Below, piece by piece: positions 32,232 to 61,540 of a DNA stretch of 64,000 nucleotides. The notes under the pieces are model-generated. The model was not told the DNA's origin. It did not search any database and saw only the letters and a list, made by a program, of their open reading frames with translations. The DNA is from Closterium sp. NIES-65. Its lineage: Eukaryota > Streptophyta > Zygnematophyceae > Desmidiales > Closteriaceae. Made by a program: the position numbers and the translations under genes. The DNA is taken from positions 2,044,001 through 2,108,000 of the forward strand of contig CANXME010002579.1 of the NCBI GenBank assembly GCA_948144175.1, given 5' to 3'. The stretch's first letter is position 1. Each line of letters opens with the position of its first letter.

Positions 32232-33324
32232 TGTTGGGTGCAAATTCACATTGCACGACATCCTGCCGTCTGTTTGTACGAGTATGCGTGTGCGAATGCA
32301 TTTGCGTGTGAATGGTATGTTCGTGTGTTTGTTTGCTTTCGCAATTTTTACTTGAAGCATTTGCAGGTACTCGCACAATGAGCGCTTCGGCATAACATTG
32401 TACGCGCTATGAACAGTACAAGCAGAAAGGACGAGCTCGCAAAGGAACCCAAGATGGAAGCTTTGTGGTTCGGCTTACTTGATTGCGCAGATTCAGTTCT
32501 ATCCAACTCGAAATTGTACTGTTTTGTTTGGTTGCCTATGGTGTAGCAGGGCAGGCACTATAGGGGTACAATTTAGGTGAAGGTTGGATGTTGTTTGTCT
32601 GTATCTGCATGCTACAGGGCCAGGGGAAACCAGCGGAACCAGCATCTGGCTGGTTGGGCAAAGACAAAACAGGTTCTGTTTTTAGGACCTGAACCTGGTT
32701 GTTGTTTTCCCTGGTTGGAAAAACAGAACCAGAGGTTGTTTACCAACCTACCACCTGCTATTTTGTCCAGCCAGGTTGGTTCTGTTGCTTGGAATTATTT
32801 GGGATCATCCCTGGTTGTTCCCAGGTTGATTCCCAAGGTCCTTGCTAGCTAGAGCTATTTATTCCTTCTCTGTTTGTACCTGAATATAGTGAAATTGCTT
32901 CAAGCGAATTCCTCCCTTCCTGGAATTTCGTTTCTACGCGGTGCGACGGCGGAATGCCACCCGAGTCAACGCTAGTACGCTAGCACTCCAACGCTAGGCT
33001 AACGCTGTCCGAGCCATAACTTCGTAATGGCAGAACTTTTCGCGAGGCAACTTGGCTTATTTTAAAGCTCTTAGAGTGAGCTTCGATATAGGAAATTCTC
33101 AGCTTAATCCGATTTACGGTCTGCACGATACGCTGCGCGACGTTCAAGGTACTCTTGCTGTTTTGACTAAGTCCCTCTTGATCCCTCTCTCTACGAACTC
33201 GGACCCGAGGATAGGGGCTGGTCTTGTACCACGCACCCAAGGACCCTTGGAGGTGACCCCGAGGAGAGGTTTTAAGTGTGATAAAGTCTTAATAGCTTGA
33301 GTTTATTAGGCCCTTACACCAACA
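32232..33324 (+). repeat. Solo LTR of family A with perfect ACTTA target duplication
   Basis: 1,093 bp, TGTTGGG...CCAACA, flanked by ACTTA on both sides (32227-32231, 33325-33329), with minisatellite on each side and no internal region. This is the usual product of recombination between the two LTRs of one element. Its right half (32857 on) belongs to the segmental duplication. Confidence 0.93.
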
Positions 33325-33650
33325 ACTTATATATGTTGCTGGTACTAAGAGTGACTGCGTTAATTACCCATGTGCTTGGCAACAAGCGTAAGTGCGTTAC
33401 TTTCCTGTTTGGTAGGTAATAAGATAAAGAGCGTTTCTTACTTGTACGGTTGGTACTAAGAGTAAGTTCGTAACTTACGCATATGGTTGATACTAAAGAG
33501 TATTAAGAATAAGTGCGTTACTTACCCATGTGGTTGGTATTAAGAGTAAGTGCATTGCTTACCCGTGTGGTTGGTATGAATAACAAGTGCACTGCTTATC
33601 CGTCTGTTTAGTACAAATACTAAGTACGGTACTTGCCCATGTAGTTGGTG
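33325..33650 (+). repeat. 39-bp minisatellite inside duplication copy 1
   Basis: About eight degenerate units with TGGTTGGTA and AAGTGCGTTACTTACCC; repeated at 58495-58820. Confidence 0.88.
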
Positions 33651-34179
33651 TCGAGGAGAAAAGGCTCCGCCCTCGCTTGGGCAAAGTCGGCCATGCTTTT
33701 CGGAGCACAACGGTGTTTGTTTCGTGCTCATTGGCGACTTTAGGGACTTTTATATCTGAATGACGAGTCGATTTTCGACGAGATTAATTCGTCGAAATTG
33801 AAGTGTTCTTTCTGCTCTACGCAACTGCCCCTCGACGAGGCACTTGGCGAGGGGAGCAAAACGGCGTCAAAATCGAGCCTTCCGAATCGACGAAACGGTA
33901 GAAAACATCGTTTCGACAAAACTCTGGTCGACAGAATTAAGCTCGAAATACGCACCGTCGAGTAGAGCGTTTCTAGTCGACAAAATGACTTGTCTCCAAA
34001 AATCGCAATGTGCGCGAATTTCGACCAATCGCGACACAACAAATTTCGACCAATCATAGCATTTCGGAAATTGTACTCCCTAAGAGATTACAAATCAGTA
34101 AGGAAATTGAACCTGAAACACGTTTTTACTAACAATAAAAACGTAAACAACTCTGAACGTTGGAAACCTGAGAAGCTAC
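33651..34179. other. TCGAC-rich stretch of unknown nature (duplicated)
   Basis: Begins TCGAGGAGAAAAGGCTCCGC where the minisatellite stops. It is dense in TCGAC/GTCGA motifs and has the hairpin TTTCGACGA-GATTAAT-TCGTCGAAA near 33773-33797. Because broken gag D lies downstream (41627 on, once C1 is removed), it may be part of the LTR or leader of family D, but I see no second LTR or primer site. No convincing gene: the frames at 33740-34057 and 33990-34343 are not supported by any domain. Confidence 0.45.
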
Positions 34180-34307
34180 TGTCAGATTTATATGACATAG
34201 TTGCTGTAGGCTATAGTGGGGTATCACATATGGGGTACAGGGTTTCTAGGGTTGTATTTGTACCCAATCTTTCCTTAGTCATTCCATTCCTACTTACTCA
34301 TTTCACA
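34180..34307 (+). repeat. 5' LTR of C1 (128 bp)
   Basis: Starts TGTCAGATTTATATGACATAG and ends CTCATTTCACA. Compared with the 3' LTR it has GTATCACAT where the other has GTAGCACAT. At 128 bp it is very short for a copia LTR. Confidence 0.95.
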
Positions 34308-34318
34308 TGGTATAGAGC
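34308..34318 (+). promoter_or_regulatory. Primer binding site of C1
   Basis: TGGTATAGAGC directly abuts the LTR. It resembles the initiator-Met site TGGTATCAGAGC with one base missing. C2 has TGGAATCAGAGC at the same place. Confidence 0.75.
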
Positions 34319-34353
34319 GGGTTCCCTGTGGAACTCTGCCTAGGGCCCACCGA

Positions 34354-34373
34354 AGCGCGCCCCGAGGCGCGCT
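34354..34373 (+). other. Leader hairpin of C1
   Basis: AGCGCGCC-CCGA-GGCGCGCT, eight paired bases and a CCGA loop, 36 bases after the primer site. C2 has a related hairpin with the same loop at 50642-50661 (minus). A run of T follows in both. Confidence 0.65.
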
Positions 34374-34384
34374 CAACTTTTTTT

Positions 34385-35310
34385 CCGCTCTCGAGCGACC
34401 CTCCGTGTCGCCTCCCTCCCAGTCGCGGCCCCAGCCGCCCGCTACGATCGCGGCCCCAGCCGCCTGCTCGACGCGGCCCCCAGCCGCCTGCTCGACGCGG
34501 CCCCTCAGCCGCCTGCTCGACGCGGCCCTGCCGCCCGCTACGCCGCGGCCGCCGCCCACTACGATCGCGGCCCCGGCCGCCTGCTACGACCGCGGCCCCA
34601 GCCGCCTGTTCGACCGCGGCCCCGCCGCCCGCTCCTGTCGCGGCCCCGGCTGCCTGCTCGCACGGCCTCGCCGCCCGCTACTACCGCGGCCCCGGCCGCC
34701 TGCTCGACCGCGGCCCCCCAGCCGCCTGTTCGACCGCGGCCCCGCTGCCCGCTACTGTCGCGGCCCCGGCCGCCTGCTAGCGCGGCCTCGCCGCCCTCTA
34801 CTACCGCGGCCCCGGCCGCCTGCTTGCACGGCCCCGCCGCCTGCTACGACCGCGGCGCCAGCCGCCTGTTCGACCGCGGCCCCGCCGCCTACTACCGTAG
34901 CGGCCCCGGCCGTCTTCTCGCGCGGCCCCGCCGCCCACCTACTACCGCGGCCCCAGCCGCCTGCTCGCACGGCCCCGCCGCCTGCTACGACCGCGGCCTC
35001 CCAGCCCACTAGGCTGCGGCCGCCGCCTGCTCAACCGCGGCTTCGCCGCCCACTACGCATCGGCCCCGCCGTCCACCTGTAGCGACTGTGCGGGCGGACC
35101 TCTGAGCAGCTGTGCCGCCGAGCCGCCCGGGAGCCGAGCCGCCCTGCAGCCGAGCCGCCCGGGAGCCGAGCCGCCCTGCACCCGAGCCGCCCTGTCGCCG
35201 AGCCGCCCTGCCCCCGAGCTGCCCTGCCGCCGAGCCGCCCGGGAGCCGAGCCGCTGTGCACCCGAGCCGCCCGGTCGCCGAGCTGCCTTTCTGTCGAGCT
35301 ACGCGACCTG
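34385..35310 (+). repeat. GC-rich tandem repeats in the C1 leader
   Basis: Two blocks between the primer site and gag. The first (about 34430-35075) has units of about 23-25 bp around CGCGGCCCCAGCCGCCTG; the second (about 35105-35290) has 15-bp-type units around GAGCCGCCCGGGAGCC. Long frames here (34328-34780, 34405-35082) translate to Ala/Pro/Arg repeats and are not conserved in C2, so I regard the region as a non-coding leader. Confidence 0.85.
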
Positions 35311-35387
35311 CCCTGCCTGGTGAGCACAGTCCCACTGTCACTGCGTGCTCTCCCCCCTACTGCTTGCACTGCTTCACAGTCGTCGTC

Positions 35388-38300
35388 ATGGCTACCCCTA
35401 GTGTCCTAGCTTTTGACGCTGAGGGTCGCGCCATTGATTTTGAGGTCTGGCTAGACGACCTGCAGCTGTTCTTACAGTGCGACAGAGCTGACGACCTTTC
35501 TCTCTTTGACCTCACCTCTGGCGCCTCTCCTGCTCCTGCTACTGATGCTGATCCCGCTGTCCGCTCTAAGTGGGCCACCCGCGATGCTGCTGCACGTCTT
35601 GCTGTGCGTCGCCACCTTCCTACCTCTGAGCGTGCGCACTTCAGTCAGTACAAGAGTGCTCAAACCTTGTACGACGCTGTAGTTGCGCGCTACTCCTCCC
35701 CTGCCACTGCTGCACTGAGCCGTCTCATGCTTCCCTACCTCTTTCCTGACCTCTCTGCCTTTCCCACTGTCGCTGACCTCATTACGCATCTCCGCACTAG
35801 TGACACTCGCTACCGCGCCGCCCTTCCTGCTGAGTTCTGCGCTAAGAACCCCCCCCCCCATGTACATCGCTCTCTACTACGTAGTCGCGCGCCTCCCTGA
35901 CTCCCTTCGAGTCGTCAGGGACCACTTTCTCGCAGTCTGCCCCACCACGCTCACCGTCGACCTCCTCGAGAAGGCCCTCCTCGCAGCGGAGAAGAGCATA
36001 GTCGCTGTAGGTGCTTCTCGTGGTGACCCTCGCACCCCCATCTTTGAGGGGTGCTCTCCTTCCCCCTTGCTGCCCTCTGTTGCCTCTGCTGCTGCTGCCG
36101 ACCTGCTTGGTCTTGAGTCGGTCGGCGCGGCGTCTGCCCCTAGTGGGAGACGTCGCTCCAGCAAGGGCAAGGGGGGCAAGGGCGCGGGTGGAGCTGGAGG
36201 GGGCGGTGGCGGTGGCGGCGGTGGCGGCGGAGGGAGTGGGGGTGGCGGCGGGACTAGTGGCGGGGGTGGTGGTGGTGGTGGCAGCAGCGGCGGGGACAGT
36301 AGTGGTGGTGCCAGCGGTGGTGGTGGAGGCAGCGGCGGGGGTGGAGGCGGCGGAGGTGGAGGCGGTGGAGGCGGCGGCGGAGGAGGCAGTGGTGGTGGAG
36401 GGGGTGGAGCTGGTCGGGGTGGTACCCAGCAGCGTAGCGGCGGTGGTGGTGGCCAGCGCTCGCAGCGGCAGCAGCAGCAGCGCTCTCGGGACATCCCTTC
36501 GCCTCAGCAGCTTCGTGAGTGGTACGCTGGGCGTCAGAGGGGTGGGGGTACTGGTCCCTGCACCTACGTTCTTCGTTCCGGCGACCGCGCGGGTGAGCAG
36601 TGTGGGGGTGCCCACGCCACCCAGCGCTGCTTTGGCCGCCTGACGGACGCCTGGCGTCAGCAGTTCCCTGGGGCTAGTGAGATCCCTCGCTGGGATGAGC
36701 TTCTCAGGGCTGGTGTAGCGATCTTTGATCTTGATTTTGATGCTATCCTTACTGCTATGTATGTTGTGGATTATAGTGAGGAGAATGAGGGTTACCGTTG
36801 TTTCCAGCCCGACCCGGGCATTGGTACTGCTGCGCTAGGTGCTTGTGAGGCTGCTGCTCTAGGTGCCAGTGCGTCTGCGCTCTCAGGTACTGGTGAGACT
36901 GCGCTCTCAGGTACTGCGTCGTCCTCGTCCTCCCTCACTTTCACACTTGACTCCGGAGCTTCTCGCTCCTTCTTTCGAGACCGCACTACCCTTACGCCGC
37001 TCGGCCGACCGGTTGCAGTCTCCCTTGCTGACCCCTCTGGAGGTCCTGTCCTGTCTCACTTCTCCACTGTCCTCCCGTGTTCGGCTGCCCCTTCGGGCAC
37101 CCTGTCGGGTCTGTACCTTCCCTCGTTCTCCACGAACTTGGTGAGTGGAGCGGACCTGCAGGATGGGGGTGTTCACCAGTTCACTCCTGCGAGTCAGCGG
37201 GTGACCCACTGCACGGAGGCACGCACAGGCCGACACCTGGCCACGTTCTCGCGTCGGCCGGGGTCGAGTCTCTACACCCTGACCGTTGAGTCTCCTCCTG
37301 TCCCTGCGTCTGGTCAGGTGGCTGCGTCGGGTCAGGTACTTGCTGCTGCGTCCCGGTCAGGTCCTGAGTCTGCCCCCTGTTCTTGTCGCCTCCTGTCTCA
37401 CGAGACTCTCCTGTGGCACCACCGTCTTGGCCACCCCTCCTTGCCCCGTCTTCGGAGCATGGCTTCCCGTGTCCTTGTCTCTGGTCTTCCCCAGTCTCTC
37501 CCTCCTCTCCCCTCCGGGCCAGGACCTTCCTGTGTCCCCTGTGTCGAGGGTCGCCTCCGGGCTACTCCTCACTCCTCCCACTTCCCCCCGAGAGAGGCTC
37601 CCCTGCAGACGCTTCACATGGATGTGTGGGGCCCAGCCCCCGTCCGTGGGCAGGGTTACGAGCGCTACTTCGTGTTGGTGGTTGACGACTACTCGCGTTA
37701 CACCACAGTCCTCCCCTTGCGCAGCAAGGGTGCGGTCACTGAGGTGCTGATTGACTGGATCCGCGAGGCTCGTCTCCAGCTCAGGAAGAGCTTCGGCTCG
37801 GACTTTCCTGTTCTGCGTCTGCACTCGGACAGAGGCGGAGAGTTCTCTTCTCGCCTTCTGCGGGACTACTGTCGTGCACGGGGGATCCGCCAGACCTTCA
37901 CGCTTCCGGACTCACCACAGCAAAATGGGATTGCTGAGCGCCGCATTGGCATGGTCATGGATGTCGCTCGTACGTCCATGATGCATGCGGCTGCCCCCCA
38001 TTTTCTGTGGCCGTTTGCAGTGAGGTACGCGGCGCATCAGCTCAACCTTCACCCCCGGGTCTCTCGGCCTGCGATGTCCCCAGCCTTGCTGTGGACGAGG
38101 AAGGTTGGCGATGCGTCTGTGTTCCGTGTCTGGGGATCTCGGGCGTTTGTCCGCGACTTGTCTGCGGACAAGCTGTCCCCTCGTGCTGCTCCCTGTGTCT
38201 TCCTTGGCTTCCCCACTGACGCCCCAGGGTGGCAGTTTTACCACCCCTCCTCTCGTCGTGTTCTGTCCTCCCAGGACGTCACGTTCGACGAGTCAGTCCC

Positions 38301-41292
38301 CTTCTACCGTCTCTTCCCCTACCGCACTCCTTCCCTCCCCCCTCCCCCGGACTTCCTTGTGCCGGTTCCCCCCCCGGTAGACCCCCTCCCCCCTCAGGTT
38401 CCTGCCCCCTCAGGTGTGTCCCAGGTAGACGCCGTTGACCCGGTCGAGGTTACTGGTGACTCTGGTGCTGCTGCGGGTGCTGAGCCTGGGGGTGCTGACT
38501 CTGGGGGTGCTGTGCGCGGGGGTGCTGAGCCTGGGGGTGCTACTGCTGGGGGTGCTGGGCCTGAGGGTGCTACTGCGGAGGGTGCGGAGCCTGGGGGTGC
38601 TGAGCCGGGGGGTGCTGTGCCTGGGGGTGCGGGGTCTGGGGGTGCTGGGTCGGGAGCTACTGAGCCTGGAGGTGCTGAGCTGGGAGCTGCTGAGCCTGGG
38701 GGTGCTGCGTCTGGAGCTGCTGAGCCTGGGGTTTCTCCTGCTGCTGCGTCTCGCCGGGAGCCCCTCTCTCCACAGGAGCTGCGCGAGTGGTTCGCTCGCC
38801 GCTGGAGGCGTGCTGCTGAGTCTGGAGGTGCTGCTGGAGCTGGAGCTGGAGCTTCTTCGACCGTCGTGGGTGCGGGTGCTGCCGGTCCCGGAGCTGCTGG
38901 ACCTGCGGGTCCTCCTGGAGCTGGAGCTGCTGAGGGAGCTGGTGCTGAGCCTACTGCTGTTGGTCCTGCCACTGGAGGTGTGGGTGGCGCTGGTGCTGTC
39001 GCTGAGGCTGCTGGTGCAGACCCTGCTGCGTCTGGAGCTGCCGCGCGGCCTCGGCCGTACTTCGTTCCGCTCTTGCAGCAGGTTCTTGGTCTTTCTCCTC
39101 CGGTAGAGGGTCCACCGCCTGTCCAGTCGCAGTCCCTGCTGGAGCCTTCCTCTCCACTGCCTGCTCCCTCTCCTTACACTGGTCCTACTGGAGGTCTTGC
39201 TGAGCGTCGTGAGCCTGCGTCTCGTCCCGCGTCGCCTGTTCGTGCTGCTCGCGCTAGTGGTCGCAGTTCGCGTCAGCGTCCTCCTCCTGTCCCTGGCACG
39301 CACCGGATGTCTTTGCGTCCGTCCACTGCTCCTCTGCGTGCCCCTTTGCCTTCTCCTCCTGAGTCCTCTCTTCCTGCGCTTGCCGACCCTGAGTCGGACT
39401 CTCTTCGTGCTGCCAGTCCTACTGTCACGCGTCTGCTTGCTACTGTCGTCACTGACCCCTCTTTTGAGTCCACTGCTGCGTCTGCTCTAGTCGCTGAGCT
39501 CGTCGACTTTGCTGCTCGCTGTCGTCTCGACTACGCTGCTAGTCTTGTTGCTGAGTCTGCGTCTGTCTGTCCTCCGTCCGTCGGGGGTGAGTGTGCTCTT
39601 AGCACGGACGTCCTAGAGGACAGGCAGGAGGAGTTACAATGTCTAGCGGTTGCTTCACCTCATCTCGCGTCTGTACTGCTTGCCCCTGAGGGAGACCCGG
39701 ATGCACTAGACATCCCGACTCCGCGTTCTTACGCGGAGGCCGTAGAGGGTCCCTACTCCTCTCAGTGGCAGGCAGCTATGGATGCAGAGATGGCTTCCTG
39801 GAAGTCCACAGGCACCTACGTTGACGCGGTTCCCCCTCCTGGGGCGAACATCGTCAGTGGCATGTGGATCTTCAGGGTGAAGCGGCCGCCGGGCTCTCCA
39901 CCTGTCTTCAAGGCACGGTACGTTGCTCGTGGCTTCAGTCAGCGGCAGGGAGTTGACTACTTTCAGACCTTCTCTCCCACCCCGAAGATGACTACTCTTC
40001 GGGTGCTGCTGCACATAGCCGCTCAGCGCGACTACGAGCTTCACTCTCTCGACTTCAGCACTGCGTTCTTGCAGGGTAGCCTGCACGAGGAGATCTGGCT
40101 TCGCCGTCCACCTGGCTTCACTGGGACTTTCCCTCCTGGCACCCAGTGGAGCCTCCGACGGCCAGTCTACGGTCTCCGCCAGGCACCGCGTGAGTGGCAC
40201 GACACACTGAGGACTACGCTTGAGGCTCTTGGGTTTGCTCCTTCTACTGCTGACCCGTCGCTGTTTCTTCGCACCGACACTTCCCTGCCGCCGTTCTACA
40301 TCCTCGTGTACGTCGACGACTTGGTCTTTGCCACAGCAGACACTGCTGGACTCGCCTACGTGAAGTCCGAGCTGCTGAAGAGACACACGTGCACAGACCT
40401 GGGTGAACTGCGCAGCTACCTTGGCTTGCAGATCACTCGGGACAGAGCACGCCGCACCATTACCTTGACTCAGTCACACATGGTGCAGCAGGTCCTTCAG
40501 CGCTTCGGCTTCACGTACTCCTCGCCTCAGGCCACTCCTCTGCCTACTCGCCACTCACTCTCAGCTCTGCCTTCGGATGAGTCCGTAGAGTCGAGTGGTC
40601 CGTATGCAGAGCTTGTTGGCTGCCTCATGTACCTGATGACCTGCACACGACCTGACCTTGCATACCCTCTGAGCATTCTTGCACGCTATGTTGCTCCTGG
40701 GAGACACAGACCGGAGCACATGGCTGCAGCGAAGAGGGTATTGCGCTACCTGTGCAGTACGTCGGGCATGGGGCTAGTGCTTGGAGGGCGGAGTCCAGTG
40801 GTCCTTACCGGCCACGCGGACGCTTCTTGGGCTGACGACCAGGCTACGCAGCGGTCGTCACAGGGTTACACCTTCAGCCTTGGTTCCGGCTCTGTCTCGT
40901 GGCGGTCTACTCGCTCGTCTTCGGTTCTCGGCTCCAGTTGTGAGGCTGAGATCTACGCCGGGGCCATGGCTGCACAGGAGCTTCGCTGGCTCACCTACCT
41001 GCTGACTGACCTTGGAGAGCCGCCTCGTTCTCCTCCAGTGCTGTACGTAGACAACAAGGCTATGCTGGCCTTGTGTCGAGAGCAGCGCTTGGAGCACAGA
41101 ACGAAGCACATTGCTCTCCGCTACTTCCTTGCTCGTGAGCTGCAGCAGCGTGGTCAGTTGCGACTTGCGTACGTGGCCTCTGAGGCCAACACTGCTGATG
41201 TGTTCACCAAGGCACTCGCGCCTTGTGACCATCAGCGCTTTTGCACCCAGTTGGGTCTTGTGCCTGTCTTGCCTCACTTGCTCTCCTCTTGA
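35388..41292 (+). CDS. Copia-C1 gag-pol polyprotein, with one homopolymer frameshift in gag
   Basis: Gag starts at ATG 35388 (MATPSVLAFDAEGRAIDFEVW), shared with C2. The frame breaks at a run of 11 C (35849-35859); with ten C it would continue into the main frame, open to the stop at 41290-41292. Order: Gag; poly-glycine tract (about 36190-36440); Cys/His motif CX13CX3HX4C (36559-36633); protease TLDSGAS (Asp at 36949); integrase HHRLGH...CVPC, HMDVWGP, LHSDRGGEF and NGIAER (about 37410-37940); GGAEP-type linker (38460-38740); reverse transcriptase with YVDD at 40309-40320; RNase H with GHADASWADD, SSCEAEIYA, YVDNKAML and KHIALRYFLARE. All catalytic residues I can check in pol are present. 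If the extra C is an assembly error, C1 could be autonomous. Confidence 0.93.
36190..36440 (+). repeat. Poly-glycine coding tract of C1
   Basis: GGT/GGC/GGG codons coding some 80 residues, almost all Gly with a few Ser, Ala and Thr. It lies between the capsid-like region and the Cys/His motif. The same tract in C2 (about 48840-49110, minus) differs in length and pattern, as expected of a slippage-prone repeat. Confidence 0.88.
38460..38745 (+). repeat. GGAEP-type coding repeat of C1
   Basis: 15-bp repeats (CTGGGGGTGCTGAGC and variants) coding GGAEP, GGADS, GGATA and similar pentads between integrase and reverse transcriptase. C2 has a more uniform version at about 46500-46790. Confidence 0.88.
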
Positions 41293-41498
41293 CTTCACTT
41301 GTACTGTGACATATATATATGCCTGCTCTTGTTTGTCTAGTTTTATATATATGTCTGTACTCCTGCATGTGAACTGGCCTCTGGCCCTACTCTTGTGCTC
41401 GGACTGTGTGGTGACTTTGTGATCCACCCTGAGCTTGCTTTGCTTTGCTTGACTGGTCTTGTGACCCCTTGTTCTCCCCCACTTTGCTTATGGGGGTG
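41293..41498 (+). other. 3' untranslated segment and polypurine tract of C1
   Basis: About 200 bp from the stop to the LTR, with two TATATATAT stretches and, next to the LTR, TGCTTATGGGGGTG, which contains the likely plus-strand primer (GGGGGTG). Confidence 0.7.
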
Positions 41499-41626
41499 TG
41501 TCAGATTTATATGACATAGTTGCTGTAGGCTATAGTGGGGTAGCACATATGGGGTACAGGGTTTCTAGGGTTGTATTTGTACCCAATCTTTCCTTAGTCA
41601 TTCCATTCCTACTTACTCATTTCACA
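41499..41626 (+). repeat. 3' LTR of C1 (128 bp)
   Basis: Identical to the 5' LTR except one base. Followed by the GCTAC target duplication and the continuation of the duplicated region. Confidence 0.95.
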
Positions 41627-41631
41627 GCTAC

Positions 41632-42002
41632 CAACTCAGGGGAAAGACACATATGCTTGTCGTTTCACCTGGCGTTGCTGACTCGGAAAGGTCGAGCGTT
41701 CGTCGAGGAACGTTTCTCCAGAGTTCATTGTGCTTGCTATATGGGATCTCTTTCCTTGTTGCATAATCTTGTTCTATCAATTTTCTTAGTGAAACTATGC
41801 TCGAATTCTACTAAGTCATTCAAACATCCAGAATCTCTGCCAAAACTCTGACCGTGCGTCACACGCAATTCAGCTCTCCCTTAGAATAGAATTCTCCGCA
41901 TGGTGCGGTGAGCGTCGAATGACCCCGCGTTAGAACCTTCAGATTAGACAACATTTCGCTCTATACCTAAGTTGTTGTAGGCCGGCAACCACCTAGACCG
42001 CC
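41632..42002. other. Leader-like stretch upstream of gag D (duplicated)
   Basis: Continuation of the duplication after C1, matching 59350-59720. AT-richer than the C elements, with no convincing reading frame. It may be the leader of family D; no primer site was identified. Confidence 0.45.
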
Positions 42003-43262
42003 ATGGACGACCAAAGAGTCGATGCAGGAGTAGAGGATATTCTGCAGGCGCGGTTGGATGCTGTTCGGGCACGCCACGAGGCTGGCGGGTACAACGAGGC
42101 GGACTTGGAGATTTTGCTCCTCGCAACTCGTGCGCAGTGGGCGCGTGAGCAATCCCCTCCCCGTGCTGAAGCGGACGACGCGTCCACCTCTCTCCTCGAC
42201 CCATGCACAACGAAGGTGACGGCGGCAATGTTGTCGGCGAATGAAGGACGAGGGTTCGTGGAGTGATTCGGATCCCTGACGTCGACGTTGGCGGAGTGCA
42301 AGCGCAAGTGCTGCGGTCGACGGTGGCTGCAGGCAACTCAAACGGCAACATCGATGGTCGACGTCAATCTCCTCAGCGGAGTGGAGCCAGGCCGACTTCG
42401 GCGACTCATGCGTCGGCTGGTCGAGACGGAGGCATCGCTTCGGCGTACGGCTACTTCAAATTTTCGCCGGACAAGATCGCTAAGCCGAAGCCGCTTGAAG
42501 GACGACATAACTTGATCATATGGATTGAGTCAACCGAACCCCAGCCAGAGATCGCTGGATTGAAGAAGTTCGTTGACGGCAAGGTGGAGATGCCTTACGA
42601 AGACGACTCTGAATTGTTGGCGGAATTTCGCGCTGCTCACCAAGACTTTCATGGTCCTTTTACGGTGTTGTTTGCCACTGGTGCAAGTCGCGTTAAAGCC
42701 GTACCGAATTCGTGTGGACGCCGGCTACCAAGCGTGGCAGTACATCATGCGCACCTACAATGCGACCGACGACCTCTACATCAGCCAACTAGAGAAGAAA
42801 TTGGCCACTATTCATATGGGCGAGCAGGAATCGGCGACCAAGTACTGCAATCGAGCGCGATGAATTTTGGCCGACATGCAGATGGCAGGTTTTGAGTACT
42901 CGGTGGCGTCATATGTCACGCATGTCATTAATGGTCTCCCCTCGAGCTACAATCTGATGTGACAGATGCTGATCATGCCCTGCGCGCACGACACTCTGAA
43001 CGAGGATTCGCTTTCGAGTCACATCATCCAGGATGAGTTCATGCAGGAGTCTGAGCGGTCTTCAGAGCTCCTTCCGCAGGCCAGCTACGTTGCTCCGACA
43101 AAGCAGGGACGTTAAACGGGACAGTGTGGGAAGTCGGCCGGAGGAGAAGGCAGTGGCGGAAAGTCGTTGAACACGAAGTCAACGGAGGGCGCCTACCGCG
43201 GGGACTCGGCGAAGGGCAATGATGGCGGTAGTAGTGGTTCGCGTCGAGCATGACGTCGCTGT
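42003..43262 (+). pseudogene. Family D copia gag pseudogene, copy 1
   Basis: Starts ATG 42003 (MDDQRVDAGVEDILQARLDAVR). The coding signal then moves between frames at least twice: about 42003-42240, then the 42263-42600 frame (YFKFSPDKIAKPKPLEGRHNLIIWIES, IAGLKKFVDGKVEMPYEDDSELL), then about 42660-42863 (VALKPYRIRVDAGYQAWQYIM, LYISQLEKKLATIHMGEQESATKYC), and after a TGA continues with MQMAGFEYSVASYVTHVINGLPSSYNLM. The last motifs match the capsid region of copia-type Gag (UBN2-like). The frame breaks off where an A LTR fragment begins at 43263. There is no pol. Confidence 0.75.
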
Positions 43263-43370
43263 TGTTGGTGTAAGGGCCTAATAAACTCAAGCTATTAAGA
43301 CTTTATCAAACTTAAAACCTCTCCTCGGGGTCACCTCCAAGGGTCCTTGGGTGCCTGGTACAAGACCAGC
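43263..43370 (-). repeat. Terminal 108 bp of a family A LTR, antisense
   Basis: On the minus strand this is the last 108 bp of the A LTR, ending CCTTACACCAACA (rc of 43263-43275). It joins gag D to minisatellite and recurs at 60981-61088 in copy 2 of the duplication. Confidence 0.9.
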
Positions 43371-43569
43371 ACACGAGAAACTAACAGACATATTCTTAGT
43401 AGTAACTACACGGGTAAGTAACGCACTTATTCTTAGTACTAGCCACATGGGTAAGTTACACACCTACTCTTAGTACCAACCACACTAGTAAGTAACGCAT
43501 TGACTCGTAGTGCCGACCACATGGGTAACTAACGTACTCATTCTTAGTACCAACTACACAGCAGGTAAC
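43371..43569 (-). repeat. 39-bp minisatellite, antisense block
   Basis: Units in reverse orientation (CTTAGTACCAACCACA and GTAAGTAACGCACT). It ends in GTAAC (43565-43569), the C2 target duplication. Confidence 0.9.
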
Positions 43570-50640: not shown

Positions 50641-50641
50641 A

Positions 50642-50698: not shown

Positions 50699-50710
50699 GC
50701 TCTGATTCCA
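50699..50710 (-). promoter_or_regulatory. Primer binding site of C2
   Basis: On the minus strand TGGAATCAGAGC, abutting the 5' LTR. It differs by one base from the usual initiator-Met site. Confidence 0.8.
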
Positions 50711-50842: not shown

Positions 50843-51308
50843 GTAACTAACGTACTTATTCGTGTTACTAACCATACAAGTAACGCACTTCCTCTTAGTA
50901 CCAACCACACTGGTAAGTAACTCACTGACTCACGGTACGGACCACATCGGTAAGTAACGCACTCACTGTTAGCACCAACTACACGGGTAAGTAACTCACT
51001 TAGTTTAAGTAGCAACCATACAGGTAAGTAACGCACTTAATCTTAGAACCAACCACATGGGTAGCTAAGATATATTTTATTGGTACCAGCCACAATGATA
51101 GGTAACGCACTAACCATTAGTACCAACCATACGGTAAGTAACACACTCACTCTTAGTACCAACTAGACGGGTAAGTAACCTACTTACTCGTATTACTAAC
51201 CATACAAGTAAGTAACGCACTTCCTTTTAGTACCAACCACACAGGTAAGCAACGCACTTACTGTTAATATCAACCAGATGAATAAGTAACGCACTTACTC
51301 CTAATATT
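50843..51308 (-). repeat. 39-bp minisatellite, antisense block
   Basis: Reverse-oriented units (TTAGTACCAACCACAC, GTAAGTAACGCACTTA). The part to 51100 belongs to duplication copy 1; 51101-51308 is outside it. It ends at the A5 LTR. Confidence 0.9.
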
Positions 51309-52286
51309 TGTTGGGTGCAAATTCACATTGCACGACATCCTGCCGTCTGTTTGTACGAGTATGCGTGTGCGAATGCATTTGGGTTTGAATGGAATGTTCG
51401 TGTGTTTGTTTGCTTTCGCAATTTTCGCTTGAAGCAATTGCAGGTACTCGCGCATTATGCGCTTCGGCATAACATTGTACGCGCTATGAACAGTACAAGC
51501 AGAAAGGATGAGCTCGCAAAGGAACCCAAGATGGAATGTTGAAGGTTGGATGTTGTTTGTCTGTATCTGCATGCTACAGGGCCAGGGGAAACCAGTGGAA
51601 CCAGCATTTGGCTGGTTGGGCAAAGACAAAACAGGTTCTGTTTTTAGGAACTGAACCTGGTTGTTGTTTTCCCAGGTTGGAAAAACAGAACCAGAGGTTC
51701 TTCACCAACCTACCACCTGCTATTTTGTCCAGCCAGGTTGGTTCTGTTGCTTGGAATTATTTGGGATCATCCCTGGTTGTTCCCAGGTTGATTCCCAAGG
51801 TCCTTGCTAGCTAGAGCTATTTATTCCTTCTCTGTTTGTACCTGAATATAGTGAAATTGATTCAAGCGAATTCCTCCCTTCCTGGAATTTCGTTTCTACG
51901 CGGTGCGACAGCGGAATGCTACCCGAGTCAACGCTAGTACGCTAGCACTCCAACGCTAGGCTAACGCTGTCCGAGCCATAACTTCGTAATGGCAAAATTT
52001 TTCGCGAGGCAACTTGGCTTATTTTAAAGCTCTTAGAGTGAGCTTCGATATAGTAAATTCTCAGCTTAATCCGATCTACGGTCTGCACGATACGCTGCGC
52101 GACGTTCAAGGTACTCTTGCTGTTTTGACTAAGTCCCTCTTGATCCCTCTCTCTACAAACTCGGACCCAAGGATAGGGGCTGGTCTTGTACCACGCACCC
52201 AAGGACCCTTGGAGGTGACCCCGAGGAGAGGTTTTAAGTGTGATAAAGTCTTAATAGCTTGAGTTTATTAGGCCCTTACACCAACA
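51309..52286 (+). repeat. 5' LTR of A5 with internal deletion
   Basis: 978 bp. About 115 bp are missing at 51537-51540, where CCCAAGATGGAATG jumps to TTGAAGGTTGGATG. Confidence 0.92.
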
Positions 52287-52289
52287 AGC

Positions 52290-52301
52290 TGGTATCAGAG
52301 C
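52290..52301 (+). promoter_or_regulatory. Primer binding site of A5
   Basis: TGGTATCAGAGC three bases after the LTR. Confidence 0.9.
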
Positions 52302-52332
52302 TGCGTTATAGTGATCCTCGTTATAGGTAGCT

Positions 52333-55300
52333 ATGGCGGGCAACACCTCGGCGGTAGCTGGTGAATCTTCAGCCCAAGATCGTAGCGGCAGCCAAGATTC
52401 TGGTGTTTCTGCGCCAAGGGGAGCGCGAACAAGCCAGGGCTCGCTGATCAAGGAGGTGCTGAAAAACTTCACCGTCGAGAAGTTCAATGGTGAGGGCTAT
52501 GATGATTGGGCCTGGAAAATGCAACTTTATTTCCGTCAGATCGGATTGCTGAAACTAATGATTGGGGAGGAGCCTAGACCGAGTGACCCCGCCCTTCAGG
52601 AAGATCGGCAGGCTACTACTTGATGTCGCAGAGTTTGGAGCTGAACCAGCGCCACCACGTCATGCACCTGCTGCTGGAGGTTGAGTGCGGTCCAAAGGCG
52701 TGGACGGTGTTGAAGGAGCTGCACGCCCCTACCTCCGTCGCTGCGACGCTCATGATGGAGAGAGAGCTGTCTGCGTTGCGCCTAAGCGAGGGATAGCCGG
52801 TACAACCCATCCTGGACAAGGTGCGTGATCTCTACGCGAAGCTGGCGATTGCGGGAATCACTTACCCGGAGCAGACCAAGTGCCTGAAGATGCTCTCGCT
52901 GCTGCCGGAATCGTGGCTTCAATTCACGAGCGGATTGAACCTACCGCAGAACCAAAGCTTGTGGACGCTCGAGTGGGTGCGGACGAAGATTCTGGAGGAG
53001 GACTTCCGTCGCCGCCAACTGAGGGGTGGAGACGACGGCAGCAGCGGCTACGGGATGCAAGGGAGCCGACGTGGCAAAGGACGTGGCTTCGGTGGTGCTG
53101 GACGCGGTGCAAAGAAAGACGACGACTCCAACGACCAACAAGGAGGTACCGGTTGGGGTCGCGGTGCGAAATCTGGACGTGGGGGCAAGTCGGGTGGTGG
53201 TGGCAAAATGAAAGGGAGTTGCTGGTATTGTGAGAAGGAAGGGCACCCCTGGTTTTTGTGCTATAAGAAACCCGATGGATGGACCCCCCAGAATCGTCAC
53301 CAGGATGGCGGCGCGCGGAGGAACCAGAAAAACGGCGCCAACATGGTCGCTGATTCGTCCGACAACAACCCGAAGGGCAACGGCGGTGCGGAGAAGAAGA
53401 AGGAGCGCACCGCGGGCCAATTCTTCCATATGGGAGACAAGGGGGAGCAAGGAGACGCATCTGCTAAGGTTGGAGCAGAGCTGCACCCCTTGGACTATTA
53501 GGTGTTGGACACAGGCGCTGCTTGGACAATGACGCCGCGCAAGGACCTGCTGGACGATGTACGAGCTGCTCCGATCAACGAGGTGTGCTCCGCCTCTGGA
53601 CACGCGCTGAAGGTGGCTGGTGCGGGAAGAGCTGCGTTTAAGGGAGCAGATGGCAAGCCGGTGGTGCTGCACGACGTTCTTCTTGTTCCTGAACTCAAGG
53701 CCAACCTCATCTCCCTCCGTAAGCTTGGCAAGGCTGGGGTGAGCACTAGCACGCATGGGGCACGCACTTATAAGGGGAGGCTGGGCAATCGGGTGCTTTG
53801 GGATCTGCACGAGAGCAAGGACGTGTACAGATCTATGTGGCAGCTGCCGGCGCTGGCGTGGCACGGTGGGGGGCAGGCTGGAGAGGGGTCTGCATCCCAG
53901 GGGGAGCGCAACGCCGTTGGAGGTGTTGGTGTGAAAGTGTCGGCCAGATCTGGGGAGACAGATTGGGCAACTGCATACTGACGTTTGGGGCATGTGGTAA
54001 TGCCTTTGCTGAAGCAGCTGGAGAAGGATGGAGCCGTTAAGGGCTTGAAGCTGAACGGACAATCACCCGATGATAACTGTGAGATTTGCCTCCTTTCAAA
54101 GTTCACCCGTTTCCCCTTCCATAGTGTGGCTGGCAGGAGCAAAAAGCCGTTGGAGCTGGTCCACATGGACTTGGTGGGGCCGCTGCCGGTGCAAGGGCAC
54201 AAGGGGGAGCGGTACTTCCTAACCATAGTGGATGACTGGAGCAGGCTAATGTGGGCGTATCCGCTGAAGCAGAAAGATCACGCCGCCTCCACAATTCGGG
54301 ACGATTGGCTGCCGTTCGTGGAGAAGCAAGCGGAGTGTGTGGTGAAGCGGATTAGGACAGATCGGGGTGGTGAGTTCCTTGGAGCTGAGATGACGGCCTG
54401 GATCAAGAAGCAGGGCATCCAGAGGGAGCTGACCACGGCTTACACCCACAGTCTAACGGTGTAGCAGAACGGGCGAACCGGACAATTCTGGAGACAGCTA
54501 GGGCGCTGCTCATAGAATCTGGGCTGGGCAACTTGATGTGGCCCCATGCTGTTCGGCACGCTACCGTCGCTAGGAACAGGGTACTCACAAAGGTTGGGGA
54601 TGACTCGTGGGTGCCGTTGGAGAGGTGGCTTGGGAGGAAGCCGCCGGTGGACATGCTGAGGGTGTTCGGTTGCATGGCAGTCGCCCACGTCCCCAAGACC
54701 TACCGCAGTAAGTTGGGGGCGAGTGCAATCTGGTGTGTGCATTTGGGGCTGGCTGCTGAGAGCAAGGGATGGCTGCTGTGGGAACCTTCCAAGGGTGTGT
54801 TGTTTGACAGCAGGGATGTGAAGTTTGTTGAGGGCATGATGTATGGGAGCTGGGAGAAACAGCCGGAGGCCAGGGTGTCCCAGCAAATGGAGCAGATCAC
54901 CATGCAGCTGGACCTGACTCCTAGTGTGTGGGAGGAGGGAGAGGAGGCAGCTGCAGAGGGTGGTGATGGAAAGAAGGTACAGGAGGCACCTGCTGGTGGA
55001 GAAAATGATGTGGAGACTGGCACTAGTGGAGCTGCTGGATCTGAGGGGAAAGAGCAGCAGCAGGGGAAAACTAAGAAGCCGAAGGGTGTCGTTATGAAGG
55101 GATGGGAGACACCCGTCTCCAGGCCAGGACGTACCCGTATGGCTACTAAGAAGCTGACTGCAGGAGCTGATGTAGCGGAGCAGCAGCTTGGGACTGAGGA
55201 GGCATTGCTGATTCTACCGCATGGCTATGACCCGGATGAGGAGGATGAACCTGCCTACTGTTTTCTTGCCCCTGCACCAGAGGAACCAGCTAGCATGGAC

Positions 55301-56889
55301 GAGGCATTAGCTGGACCAGATAGGGAGAAGTGGCTGGTTTCCAGGGATGCTGAGTACCAGAGCCTGCTAGAGAATGGTACATGGGAGCTGGTGGTGCTGC
55401 CTGAGGGGAAGAAAGCGGTACAATGCAAGTGGGTGCTAAGGATCAAGACTGACGATAAGGGGCAGGTCACCATCTACAAGAGTAGGCTGGTGGCTAAGGG
55501 GTTTATGCAGAAGGAGAAGCGGGACTTCAATGAGATCTTTGCTCCCACTGCCAAACCCCCTACCCTCCGTGTCTTATTGGCAGATGCAACCGTTAGTGGG
55601 AAATTCATCATTCAGATGGATATATCAACGGCATTCCTCAATGGGATTTTAGAGGAGGAGGTGTTCATGACGCAGCCACCTGGGTATGAGGATGGTACGG
55701 GCAAGGTGTGCAAGCTGAAAAAGTCCATCTACGGCTTGAAGCAGGCGCCACGCTGCTGGTACCAGAAGTTGGCAGCTGTTTTAGAGGAGATGGGATTCAG
55801 GACCAGCAGCTATGATGAGAGCCTCTTTCTCAAGGGGGAGGGGGAGAAGCTGGTGCTGTTTCTGGTCTATGTGGACGATATTCTTCTCTTTAGCAGCAGC
55901 ATGAAGGAGATCCAGAAGGTGCAGCAGCAGCTGATGGAGAACTTCAAGTGCAAGAACCTTGGGGAGGTAAAGTACTATCTCGAGATGCATGTGGAGAGGG
56001 ATCTGGATCACAGGTGGTTGAAGCTGCACCAGGAGAAGTTCATCAAGGAGCTGGGGGAGAAGTACGGGATTGAGAATGAGCGCAAAGTTGCAACTCCCCT
56101 GCCAGCAGAATTCAAGCTTGTGAAAGCTGCAGAGGATGAAGGGGTTGAAGCCAAGGAGCAGCATTAACTTCAGTCCTTGGTGGGCAGCCTCTTGTATGCA
56201 GCAGTTCACACAAGGCCCGACATCTCTTTCTCGGTTGGGCAGCTGGCTAGGGTGGTGCAGAATCCATCAGATGAGCAGGTGGATGGAGCTGAGCGTGTGG
56301 TGAAGTATCTGAACTCTCACCCAAGCATTGGAGTTCAATACTCTGCGTCTGCACAGGTGAAGCAGAAAGGGGTTGAGGTGCTGAAAGAGAAGGGGGAGAG
56401 GCTTGGAGAAGGCAAGCTCTTTCTCAAATGCTTTACCGATGCTACGTGGACCTCTGAGAAGGAGGATTCCTCATCAATGGGAGGATACATCTGCGTAGTT
56501 GGAGGAGGACCTGTTAGTTGGAGGTCAGAGAAGCAGACGGAGACAGCACTCTCTTCAGTGGAATCAGAGTACATGGCGATGTTCCTAGGGTGAAGGAGGT
56601 GATTTGGCTGAGGAGGCTGTTAGAGGAGATTGGCCAGGAGCAAAAGGTTGCTACGCCGCTGTTTTGTGATAGCAAGGGAGCTCTTGGGATGGCCAGGAAC
56701 GCTGTGCTTCATGGGCTCAATAAGCACATGCGTATCAAGTGGCACTGGCTGCGTAAGGAGGTGAAGAGGGGGACGGTGAATCCGATCTACATCAAGACTC
56801 ACCAGCAGCCAGCAGACTTCCTCACCAAGAGGCTTGCAGATGAGCCTCATTGGCGTTGTGTGCGCATAAGTGGAATGAGCATGAACTAG
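52333..56889 (+). pseudogene. Copia-A5 gag-pol pseudogene
   Basis: ATG 52333 as in other copies. Damage, in order: a deletion near 52608 shifts the frame; TAG in GGATAGCC near 52795; TAG 53499-53501 just before protease (LDTGAAWTM follows); TGA 53979-53981 in the integrase zinc site; a one-base deletion near 54448; TAA 56165-56167 after reverse transcriptase; a one-base deletion near 56588; the last frame ends at 56889. All domains are recognisable: zinc knuckle CWYCEKEGHPWFLC, VDDWSR and RTDRGGEF, reverse transcriptase with FLVYVDDILLF (near 55866), and RNase H. It is non-functional but complete in outline. Confidence 0.93.
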
Positions 56890-56916
56890 TATGGAATGAT
56901 GGGGATGCAGCCGGCA

Positions 56917-56931
56917 GGCTGAGGGGGAGTG
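56917..56931 (+). other. Polypurine tract of A5
   Basis: GGCTGAGGGGGAGTG before the 3' LTR. Confidence 0.8.
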
Positions 56932-58026
56932 TGTTGGGTGCAAATTCACATTGCACGACATCCTGCCGTCTGTTTGTACGAGTATGCGTGTGCGAATGCA
57001 TTTGGGTTTGAATGGAATGTTCGTGTGTTTGTTTGCTTTCGCAATTTTCGCTTGAAGCATTTGCAGGTACTCGCGCATTATGCGCTTCGGCACAACATTG
57101 TACGCGCTATGAACAGTACAAGCAGAAAGGACGAGCTCGTAAAGGAACCCAAGGTGGAAGCTTTGCGGTTCAACTTACTTGATTGCGCAGATTCAGTTCT
57201 ATCCAACTCGAAATTGTACTGTTTTGTTTGGTTGACTATAGTGTAGCAGGGCAGGCACTATAGGGGTACAATTTAGGTGAAGGTTGGATGTTGTTTGTCT
57301 GTATCTGCATGCTACAGGGCTAGGGGAAACCAGCGGAACCAGCATTTGGCTGGTTGGGCAAAGACAAAACAGGTTCTGTTTTTAGGACCTGAACCTGGTT
57401 GTTGTTTTCCCAGGTTGGAAAAACAGAACCAGAGGTTGTTTACCAACCTACTACCTGCTATTTTGTCCAGCCAGGTTGGTTCTGTTGCTTGGAATTTTTT
57501 GGGATCATCCCTGGTAGTTCCCAGGTTTATTCCCAAGGTCCTTGCTAGCTAGAACTATTTATTCTTTCTCTGTTTGTACCTGGACATAGTAAAAATTGAT
57601 TCAAACGAATTCCTTCCTTGCTGGAATTTCCTTTCTACGCGGTGCTACGGCGGAATGCTACCCGAGTCAACGCTAGTACGCTAGCACTCCAACGCTAGGC
57701 TAACGCTGTCCGAGCCATAACTTCGTAATGGCAAAACTTTTCGCGAGGCAACTTGGCTTATTTTAAAGCTCTTAGAGTGAGCTTCGATATAGGAAAATCT
57801 CAGCTTAATCCGATCAACGGTCTGCACGATACGCTGCGCGACGTTCAAGGTACTCTTGCTGTTTTGACTAAGTCCCTCTTGATCCCTCTCTCTACAAACT
57901 CGGACCCGAGGATAGGGGCTGGTCTTGTACCAGGCACCCAAGGACCCTTGGAGGTGACCCCGAGGAGAGGTTTTTAAGTTTGATAAAGTCTTAATAGCTT
58001 GAGTTTATTAGGCCCTTACACCAACA
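56932..58026 (+). repeat. 3' LTR of A5
   Basis: 1,095 bp, TGTTGGG...CCAACA. Its end is joined directly to the interior of another A LTR (ATTTATTCC at 58027). Confidence 0.92.
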
Positions 58027-58494
58027 ATTTATTCCTTCTCTGTTTGTACCTGAATATAGTGAAATTGATTCAAGCGGATTCCTCCCTTCCTGGAATTTCG
58101 TTTCTACGCGGTGCGACGGCGGAATGCCACCCGGGTCAACGCTAGTACGCTAGCACTCCAACGCTAGGGTAACGCTGTCCGAGCCATAACTTCGTAATGG
58201 CAGAACTTTTCGCGAGGCAACTTGGCTTATTCTAAAGCTCTTAGAGTGAGCTTCGATATAGGAAATTCTCAGCTTAATCCGATTTACGGTCTGCACGATA
58301 CGCTGCGCGACGTTCAAGGTACTCTTGCTGTTTTGACTAAGTCCCTCTTGATCCCTCTCTCTACAAACTCGGACCCGAGGAGAGGGGCTGGTCTTGTACC
58401 ATGCACCCAAGGACCCTTGGAGGTGACCCCGAGGAGAGGTTTTAAGTGTGATAAAGTCTTAATAGCTTGAGTTTATTAGGCCCTTACACCAACA
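58027..58494 (+). repeat. 3' portion of a family A LTR (duplication copy 2)
   Basis: Starts within the LTR at ATTTATTCC and runs to CCAACA. It shares with the solo LTR the variant GGAATGCCACCCG, supporting common origin. Confidence 0.9.
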
Positions 58495-58820
58495 ACTTAT
58501 ATATGTTGCTGGTACTAAGAGTGACTGCGTTAATTACCCATATGCTTGGCAACAAGTGTAAGTGCGTTACTTTCCTATTTGGTAGGTAATAAGATAAAGA
58601 GCGTTTCTTACTTGTACGGTTGGTACTAAGAGTAACTGCGTAACTTACGCATAAGGTTGATACTAAAGAGTATTAAGAATAAGTGCGTTACTTACCCATG
58701 TGGTTGGTATTAAGAGTAAGTGCATTGCTTACCCGTGTGGTTGGTATGAATAACAAGTGCACTGCTTATCCGTCTGTTTAGTACAAATACTAAGTACGGT
58801 ACTTGCCCATGTAGTTGGTG
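58495..58820 (+). repeat. 39-bp minisatellite inside duplication copy 2
   Basis: Counterpart of 33325-33650, nearly identical. Confidence 0.9.
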
Positions 58821-59720
58821 TCGAGGAGAAAAGGCTCCGCCCTCGCTTGGGCGAAGTCGGCCATGCTTTTCGGAGCACAACGGTGTTTGTTTCGTGCTCA
58901 TTGGCGACTTTAGGGACTTTTATGTCTGAATGACGAGTCGATTTTCGACGAGATTAATTCGTCGAAATTGAAGTGTTCTTTCTGCTCTACGCAACTGCCC
59001 CTCGACGAGGCACTTGGCGAGGGGAGCAAAACGGCGTCAAAATCGAGCCTTGCGAATCGACGAAACGGTAGAAAACATCGTTTCGACAAAACTTTGGTCG
59101 ACAGAATTAAGCTCGAAATACGCACCGTCGAGTAGAGCGTTTCTGGTCGACAAAATGACTTGTCTCCAAAAATCGCAATGTGCGCGAATTTCGACCAATC
59201 GCGACACAGCAAATTTCGACCAATCATAGCATTTCGGAAATTGTACTCCCTAAGAGATTACAAATCAGTAAGGAAATTGAACCTGAAACACGTTTTTACT
59301 AACAATAAAAACGTAAACAACTGTGAACGTTGGAAACCTGAGAAGCTACCAACTCAGGGGAAAGACACATATGCTTGTCGTTTCACCTGGCGTTGCTGAC
59401 TCGGAAAGGTCGAGCGTTCGTCGAGGAACGTTTCTCCAGAGTTCATTGTGCTTGCTATATGGGATCTCTTTCCTTGTAGCATAATCTTGTTCTATCAATT
59501 TTCTTAGTGAAACTATGCTCGAATTCTACTAAGTCATTCAAACATCCAGAATCTCTGCCAAAACTCTGACCGTGCGTCACACGCAATTCAGCTCTCCCTT
59601 AGAATAGAATTCTCCGCATGGTGCGGTGAGCGTCGAATGACCCCGCGTTAGAACCTTCAGATTAGACAACATTTCGCTCTATACCTAAGTTGTTGTAGGC
59701 CGGCAACCACCTAGACCGCC
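58821..59720. other. TCGAC-rich and leader-like stretch, copy 2 (uninterrupted)
   Basis: Joins the counterparts of 33651-34179 and 41632-42002 without C1, so it shows the original sequence. The TTTCGACGA/TCGTCGAAA hairpin recurs near 58943-58967. No gene recognised. Confidence 0.5.
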
Positions 59721-60980
59721 ATGGACGACCAAGGAGTCGATGCAGGAGTAGAGGATATTCTGCAAGCGCGGTTGGATGCTGTTCGGGCACGCCACGAGGC
59801 TGGCGGGTACAACGAGGCGGACTTGGAGATTTTGCTCCTCGCAACTCATGCGCAGTGGGCGCGTGAGCAATCCCCTCCCCGTGCTGAAGCGGACGGCGCG
59901 TCCACCTCTCTCCTCGACCCATGCACAACGAAGGTGACGGCGGCAATGTTGTCGGCGAACGAAGCACGAGGGTTCGTGGAGTGATTCGGATCCCTGACGT
60001 CGACGTTGGCGGAGTGCAAGCGCAAGTGCTGCGGTCGACGGTGGCTGCAGGCAACTCAAACGGCAACATCGATGGTCGACGTCAATCTCCTCAGCGGAGT
60101 GGAGCCAGGCCGACTTTGGCGACTCATGCGTCGGCTGGTCGAGACGGAGGCATCGCTTCGGCGTACGGCTACTTCAAATTTTCGCCGGACAAGATCGCTA
60201 AGCCAAAGCGGCTTGAAGGACGACATAACTTGATCATATGGATTGAATCAACCGAACCCCAGCTAGAGATCGCTGGATTGAAGAAGTTCGTTGACGGCAA
60301 GGTGGAGATGCCTTACGAAGACGACTCTGAATTGTTGGCGGAATTTCGCGCTGCTCACCAAGACTTTCATGGTCCTTTTACGGTGTTGTTTGCCACTGGT
60401 GCAAGTCGCGTTAAAGCCGTACCGAATTCGTGTGGACGCCGGCTACCAAGCGTGGCAGTACATCATGCGCACCTACAATGCGACCGACGACCTCTACATC
60501 AGCCAACTAGAGAAGAAATTGGCCACTATTCATATAGGCGAGCAGGAATCGGCGACCGAGTACTGCAATCGAGCGCGATGAATTTTGGCCGACATGCAGA
60601 TGGCAGGTTTTGAGTACTCGGTGGCGTCATATGGCACGCATGTCATTAATGGCCTCCCCTCGAGCTACAATCTGATGTGACAGATGCTGATGATGCCCTG
60701 CGCGCACGACACTCTGAACGAGGATTCGCTTTCGAGTCACATCATCCAGGATGAGTTCATGCAGGAGTCTGAGCGGTCTTCAGAGCTCCTTCCGCAGGCC
60801 AGCTACGTTGCTCCGACAAAGCAGGGACGTTAAACGGGACAGTGTGGGAAGTCGGCCGGAGGAGAAGGCAGTGGCGGAAAGTCGTTGAACACGAAGTCAA
60901 CGGAGGGCGCCTACCGCGGGGACTCGGCGAAGGGCAATGATGGCGGTAGTAGTGGTTCGCGTCGAGCATGACGTCGCTGT
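59721..60980 (+). pseudogene. Family D copia gag pseudogene, copy 2
   Basis: Same broken gag as 42003-43262, with the same frame changes and the same stop after EYCNRAR, so the damage predates the duplication. Motifs: MDDQGVDAGVEDILQARLD, LEGRHNLIIWIES, AGYQAWQYIMRTYNATDD, HVINGLPSSYNLM. Confidence 0.75.
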
Positions 60981-61088
60981 TGTTGGTGTAAGGGCCTAAT
61001 AAACTCAAGCTATTAAGACTTTATCAAACTTAAAACCTCTCCTCGGGGTCACCTCCAAGGGTCCTTGGGTGCCTGGTACAAGACCAGC
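60981..61088 (-). repeat. Terminal 108 bp of a family A LTR, antisense (copy 2)
   Basis: Counterpart of 43263-43370 with the same limits. Confidence 0.9.
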
Positions 61089-61540
61089 ACACGAGAAACT
61101 AACAGACATATTCTTAGTAGTAACTACACGGGTAAGTAACGCACTTATTCTTAGTACTAGCCACATGGGTAAGTTACACACCTACTCTTAGTACCAACCA
61201 CACTAGTAAGTAACGTATTGACTCGTAGTGCCGACCACATGGGTAACTAACGTACTCATTCTTAGTACCAACTACACAGCAGGTAACTAACGTACTTATT
61301 CGTGTTACTAACCATACAAGTAACGCACTTCCTCTTAGTACCAACCACACTGGTAAGTAACTCACTGACTCACGGTACGGACCACATCGGTAAGTAACGC
61401 ACTCACTGTTAGCACCAACTACACGGGTAAGTAACTCACTTAGTTTAAGTAGCAACCATACAGGTAAGTAACGCACTTAATCTTAGAACCAACCACATGG
61501 GTAGCTAAGATATATTTTATTGGTACCAGCCACAATGATA
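61089..61540 (-). repeat. 39-bp minisatellite, antisense, duplication copy 2
   Basis: Joins the counterparts of 43371-43569 and 50843-51100. The empty C2 site reads CAGGTAACTAACG here. The frame 61174-61476 is a repeat translation. Confidence 0.9.

Follow-up and report, generated by a model that had tools for sequence, protein, structure and literature searches.

A composite segment occurs twice, in direct orientation, within a 64,000-nucleotide stretch of the Closterium sp. NIES-65 genome (contig CANXME010002579.1, here C2281, positions 2044001-2108000; assembly of 874 Mb in 2,400 contigs), referred to below as the window. One copy is interrupted by two young copia retrotransposons with long terminal repeats (LTRs), C1 and C2, that are missing from the other, and the two copies are separated by a retrotransposon of a second family, B5. 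The duplicated unit begins with the last 468 bases of a family B LTR, which are followed by an array of a 37-bp satellite and by E, the 5' part of a dispersed retroelement; an inverted B LTR end of 109 bp and an inverted stretch of the array complete it (Table 1). The B LTR is complete in copy 1, where it forms a solo LTR with target-site duplications (TSDs).

Removal of C1, C2, and one 5-bp TSD for each from copy 1 leaves 3,514 bp, exactly the length of copy 2, as a previous reading of the window made without database searches (the sequence-only reading) had claimed. The pairwise alignment that it had proposed contains 39 mismatches (1.11%; 98.9% alike) and no gap over the 3,514 bp; transitions account for 26 of the 39 differences, and the third piece of copy 1 is identical to copy 2 over 258 bp. 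The further statement that the copies align end to end holds for the part that survives, but copy 2 lacks both the leftward continuation of the B LTR (32232-33324) and the rightward continuation of the array (to 51308) seen in copy 1.

Two composite junctions, one between the B LTR end and the 37-bp array and the other between the truncated E and the inverted B LTR end, are present in both copies, with E broken at the identical base, where other genome copies of E run on. Because these scars are common to both, copies 1 and 2 descend from one ancestor and do not resemble each other by chance; they are diverged duplicates with common junctions on a single contig, as expected of a segmental duplication. 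A genome-wide search with the whole unit, in which the best 40 of 3,206 candidates were scored and very common words were skipped, so that B LTR copies were not listed, gave a list of 76 matches. Among those listed, copy 2 and two of the pieces of copy 1 (not its identical 258-bp third piece) were alone in exceeding both 93% identity and 110 bp, and among the listed matches on other contigs none extends more than 2 bases past the right break of E. The uniqueness of the composite junctions is that seen in this one search.

C1 and C2 both have TG...CA ends and paired LTRs and are bounded by 5-bp TSDs, and copy 2 carries each target once, without an element. The proposal that both sites are occupied in copy 1 and empty in copy 2 is therefore exact to the base, and since the copy 2 sites are unoccupied, C1 and C2 entered the copy-1 lineage only. 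Identity between the two elements is 91% across 2.6 kb, 83% across 3.1 kb, and 73% across 1.5 kb, which identifies them as separate insertions. A third member of the family, C3 (C2281:1994440-2001780; window -49560 to -42220), is inserted in a B LTR with the TSD GGTTG, is 97% like C1 over 6.5 kb, and has ends of the same kind, in agreement with the earlier suggestion that the empty and occupied sites define the exact ends of family C.

When three pieces of one reading frame of C1 were scanned against Pfam, gag_pre-integrs, rve, SH3_retrovirus, and RVT_2 were found in this order, with the integrase upstream of RVT_2 as in Ty1/copia elements; the single piece of the C2 frame that was scanned covered, and returned, RVT_2. 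Families B and C resemble Ty1/copia elements in the copia order of gag-pre-integrase, integrase core, and RVT_2, in the TG...CA ends of their LTRs, and in their 5-bp target duplications. Nothing breaks the type; family C is distinguished by its short LTRs (128-132 bp) and by GC-rich tandem repeats before and within the long frame.

The element between the copies, B5, is bordered on its left by the array of copy 1 and on its right by the inside of the B LTR of copy 2, and its two LTRs, the 5' one without bases 229-346, have no matching target duplications (ATATT versus ATTTA). In all, 45 B LTR pieces were collected from 204 kb around the window, and flanks were inspected for 40, five short or diverged ones being omitted. 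Five two-LTR B elements have both outer ends readable: three with a perfect TSD, one with a one-base difference, and B5 with its mismatch. Three of four solo or split B LTRs with readable ends have a perfect TSD (ACTTA, AAAAA, and GTGAG), and one, at 96034-97127, has no matching TSD. The LTR pairs of the three perfect-TSD elements are 98.1-98.4% alike, compared with 96.5% for B5, whose two LTRs do not pair in a tree of 24 LTR rows (a poorly resolved tree, with 13 of 21 inner branches open). B5 has the appearance of a recombinant between two B insertions, such as an unequal exchange would be expected to leave and a chimeric join made in assembly would leave equally well.

Both visible ends of copy 2 are later, secondary breakpoints, because the left one abuts B5 with its mismatched flanks and the right one (61540) leads, after 13 filler bases, into the interior of the LTR of the next B element, B6.

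Table 1. Features of the duplicated unit and of the surrounding family B elements, in window coordinates; negative numbers and numbers above 64000 extend these coordinates along the contig.
Feature	Position	Strand	Remarks
Solo LTR of copia family B, inside 37-bp satellite array	32232..33324	+	TSD ACTTA on both sides; LTR bases 626-1093 open copy 1
Copy 1, left part (3' part of B LTR, 37-bp array, start of E)	32857..34179	+	
C1, Ty1/copia element	34180..41626 (7,447 bp)	+	128-bp LTRs with 1 difference; TSD GCTAC at 34175-34179 and 41627-41631
Copy 1, middle part (remainder of E, inverted B LTR end, start of inverted array)	41632..43569	+	
C2, copia element related to C1	43570..50842 (7,273 bp)	-	132-bp identical LTRs; TSD GTAAC at 43565-43569 and 50843-50847
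Copy 1, right part (inverted 37-bp array)	50848..51308	+	match to copy 2 ends at 51100; 208 bp more up to B5
B5, two-LTR copia element between the copies	51309..58026	+	flanks ATATT/ATTTA; LTRs 96.5% alike; Pfam RVT_2 and SH3_retrovirus
Copy 2, both C targets unoccupied	58027..61540	+	GCTAC at 59345-59349, GTAAC at 61283-61287
E, 5' part of dispersed retroelement	58818..60979 (copy 2)	+	3' side cut and joined to inverted B LTR end
13-bp filler from array of copy 2 to inside of B6 LTR (LTR base 236)	61541..61553	.	breakpoint that cuts copy 2 short
B element	-8466 to 3460		TSD CCTTC/CCTTC; further, interrupted LTR inside
B element	15328-22176		TSD CGCGG/CGCAG (nearly matching); LTRs 96.5% alike
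B element	68689-75542		TSD GGGAG twice
B element	105630-112481		TSD GCTAG twice

Taken as a whole, the history that we consider moderately probable begins with an array of the 37-bp satellite that already contained a solo LTR of family B and a truncated copy of E fused to the inverted end of a B LTR. This ancestral segment would have become two, now about 1.1% divergent, and two family C copia elements would have integrated in the ordinary manner, with 5-bp target duplications, in the copy-1 lineage only. B5 would have arisen by unequal homologous recombination between a B element to the right of the unit and a B element inside the unit's LTR, an exchange that either created the direct repeat or later removed sequence between the copies. 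A crossover of this kind would produce, in one step, two direct copies with a hybrid B5 between them, and it would account for the start of copy 2 at the LTR insertion point and for the uninterrupted LTR of copy 1 at the same place. Alternatively, the segment could have been duplicated earlier and the intervening sequence then deleted between two B elements, a history that would fit as well but takes more steps. The sequence itself shows the alignment, the TSDs, the empty sites, the junctions common to both copies, and the mismatched flanks of B5; we infer the exchange between B elements, its direction, and the order of events.

Several results weigh against this history. The differences between the copies are spread unevenly: a stretch of 849 bases has no more than one of them (permutation P = 0.008), a possible sign of some conversion. 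The LTR evidence for B5 as a recombinant is weak: the element at 15328-22176, whose TSD nearly matches, also has unpaired LTRs that are 96.5% alike, and of the three perfect-TSD elements in the tree one pairs alone strongly (97/92), one weakly (93/81), and one together with a third LTR. Neither donor elements nor a reciprocal product were found when the assembly was searched, at up to 3 mismatches, for the two junctions predicted for the donor halves of B5; one had no match, and none of the 17 matches to the other was convincing. Finally, the 1.1% divergence of the copies lies within the range (0.3-2.1%) of paired contigs elsewhere in the assembly, and because it does, an allelic origin or a misjoin keeps part of the probability. 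B6 was rejected as the partner of B5, given that the two are about 95% alike, compared with 98.9% for the copies, and that the right flank of B6 does not match.

The paired contigs bear on both of these alternatives. About nine such pairs are apparent among the listed matches from their equal ranges and similar scores; two were compared, and a third comparison took another place on a listed pair. The contigs compared (C741/C2356, C1155/C149, and C365/C1175), which represent retained second haplotypes or homoeologues, are 97.9-99.7% alike where they align. One comparison gave 99.7% across 3.3 kb, the other part of the 5.0 kb used not aligning in a single piece; the others gave 98.6% across 4.8 kb and 97.9% across 3.0 kb. 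Within C2281 itself, none of three probes, at 1.0, 1.5, and 1.89 Mb of the contig, had a full-length partner among the best 40 of 32,050, 1,651, and 79 candidates. The probes lie 0.15 to 1.04 Mb from the window; those at 1.0 and 1.5 Mb are largely repeat, and that at 1.89 Mb is nearly single-copy. A fourth query, which lay in the 34-bp tandem repeat described below, is left out of this count.

The sequence-only reading had held it probable that the duplication came first and that the C elements arrived later, in one copy. That C1 and C2 are private to copy 1 stands, given the empty sites, but the precedence of the duplication is not established, because the copy-1 lineage may have been the other allele and not yet a second locus; duplication before insertion is the simplest reading, short of proof. 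Dating the copies against the C LTRs, which had been suggested as a check, is without statistical power: 1 of 260 LTR bases differs, compared with 39 of 3,514 in the copies (Fisher P = 0.52). The copies could instead be former alleles, one homologue having carried C1, C2, and a B element to the right of the unit and the other having lacked all of these, with a B element inserted in its own LTR instead; unequal crossing-over would then have placed them in tandem with a hybrid B5. We regard this as possible but tentative. It fits the mismatched flanks of B5, the uninterrupted LTR of copy 1 where B5 ends in copy 2, and the divergence of the three contig pairs, which spans 1.1%; against it, all three probes on the same contig failed to find a full-length partner and so give no sign that the region is heterozygous. 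Under this former-allele history, and likewise with a chimeric join in B5, C1 and C2 could predate the tandem arrangement. In the former-allele case, a single crossover in B elements would have frozen into one chromosome a polymorphism for the presence or absence of two retrotransposons, which would mimic insertion after duplication, an outcome to which we likewise give only a limited chance.

Misassembly, which the sequence-only reading had named as the condition that would refute it, becomes somewhat more credible given the position of the join: it falls within a repeat whose flanks do not match and of which 400 bp (54509-54908) are the same, without a difference, in three other copies at the locus. 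In this case two haplotypes or distant loci would have been joined within the repetitive 6.7-kb B5, and no molecule would hold both copies. Near-identical contig pairs elsewhere in the assembly are compatible with such an artefact, yet the other halves expected of a misjoin were not found among the junction matches, and the three probes, again, were without full-length partners. Moreover, the B copies are not identical overall (B5 and 15674-22176 are 96.4% alike over 6.5 kb), a difference that accurate long reads can usually resolve. We consider an assembly artefact unlikely.

An inversion was also considered as a subsidiary idea, in which the left parent of B5 would have its right flank elsewhere, inverted on the same contig. 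Two of the 17 junction matches have the exact ATATT, and one, C2281:2023336-2023361, is inverted on this contig and is followed by satellite-like sequence; the altered motif is rare, with one occurrence compared with 120 of the usual form (masked 204 kb, both strands). However, instead of forming a continuation of the unit's right array, the array next to this match lines up parallel to it (79-82%), and for that reason the inversion is not our main reading.

A history in which both copies once held C1 and C2, and in which copy 2 was later freed of them by precise removal or by gene conversion from an empty template, is highly improbable, for although the 849-base stretch hints at conversion toward the right end, two exact losses would be needed and neither target bears a solo LTR, such as LTR recombination would leave, an extra target duplication, or any other scar.

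Comparable arrangements have been described. Intact elements without TSDs are presented, in the relevant section of one study, as products of unequal recombination (PMC7251063), and B5 resembles the elements treated there in its two LTRs, its mismatched flanks, and the failure of its LTRs to pair in the poorly resolved tree. In contrast to that section's case, B5 lies between two copies of one flanking unit and may mark a duplication and not a deletion alone. The part of the REANNOTATE paper that concerns Drosophila (PMC2672092) describes segmental duplication in transposable element clusters and names tandem duplication or inter-element recombination as causes. The present case shares with that account the multiplication of a block holding nested elements, and differs from it in the 37-bp satellite locus and the unoccupied sites for two elements.

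The observation of a duplicated unit with two C elements in one copy is real and exact but ordinary in kind. It fixes the ends of a short-LTR copia family to the base and presents its targets in unaltered form, and the locus shows how a satellite region rich in B elements can grow by duplication and exchange. A caution also applies: finding an occupied and an empty site together on one contig is not enough to date a duplication if the intervening element is recombinant or a possible misjoin.

E was rejected as a complete element, since genome copies continue beyond its right end. Its longer matches on other contigs are 80-93% alike (best 40 of 3,206 candidates). By our own reading of the translation its frame appears gag-like, although a Pfam scan of the 241-amino-acid frame found no domain, and the sequence past the right end in the genome copies reads as a zinc-knuckle motif in our translation.

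Family B elements have behind their 5' LTR a primer-site-like stretch, TGGTATCAGAGC, of a type typical of plant copia elements, and the ends of the B LTR are present on many other contigs as well. In the tree, the 5' LTR at 15328-16421 groups with the 3' LTR of B6 (67094-68187; support 98/94) and not with its own partner, a hint of exchange among B elements. At 23306-23990, a B LTR has its first 343 bases duplicated in tandem.

The locus also contains an older duplicate pair, window -12347 to -11129 (C2281:2031653-2032871) and 5378-6595, 93.4% alike over 1,221 bp and accompanied by satellite that is also related (85%), which suggests that the locus has been duplicated more than once. Diverged 37-bp satellite arrays with a GGTTGGTACTAAGAGTAAGTGCGTTACTTACC-like unit, hosting B elements, lie at 6658-13653, and more 37-bp arrays are found at window -34062 to -20713 and at 78045-80110. 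A different tandem repeat, of 34 bp and about 246 copies, occupies C2281:1964642-1972974, 60-odd kb to the left of the nearest B-rich array; sequence related to it occurs on contigs C266 and C1652, and its long matches on other contigs are 76-78% alike.

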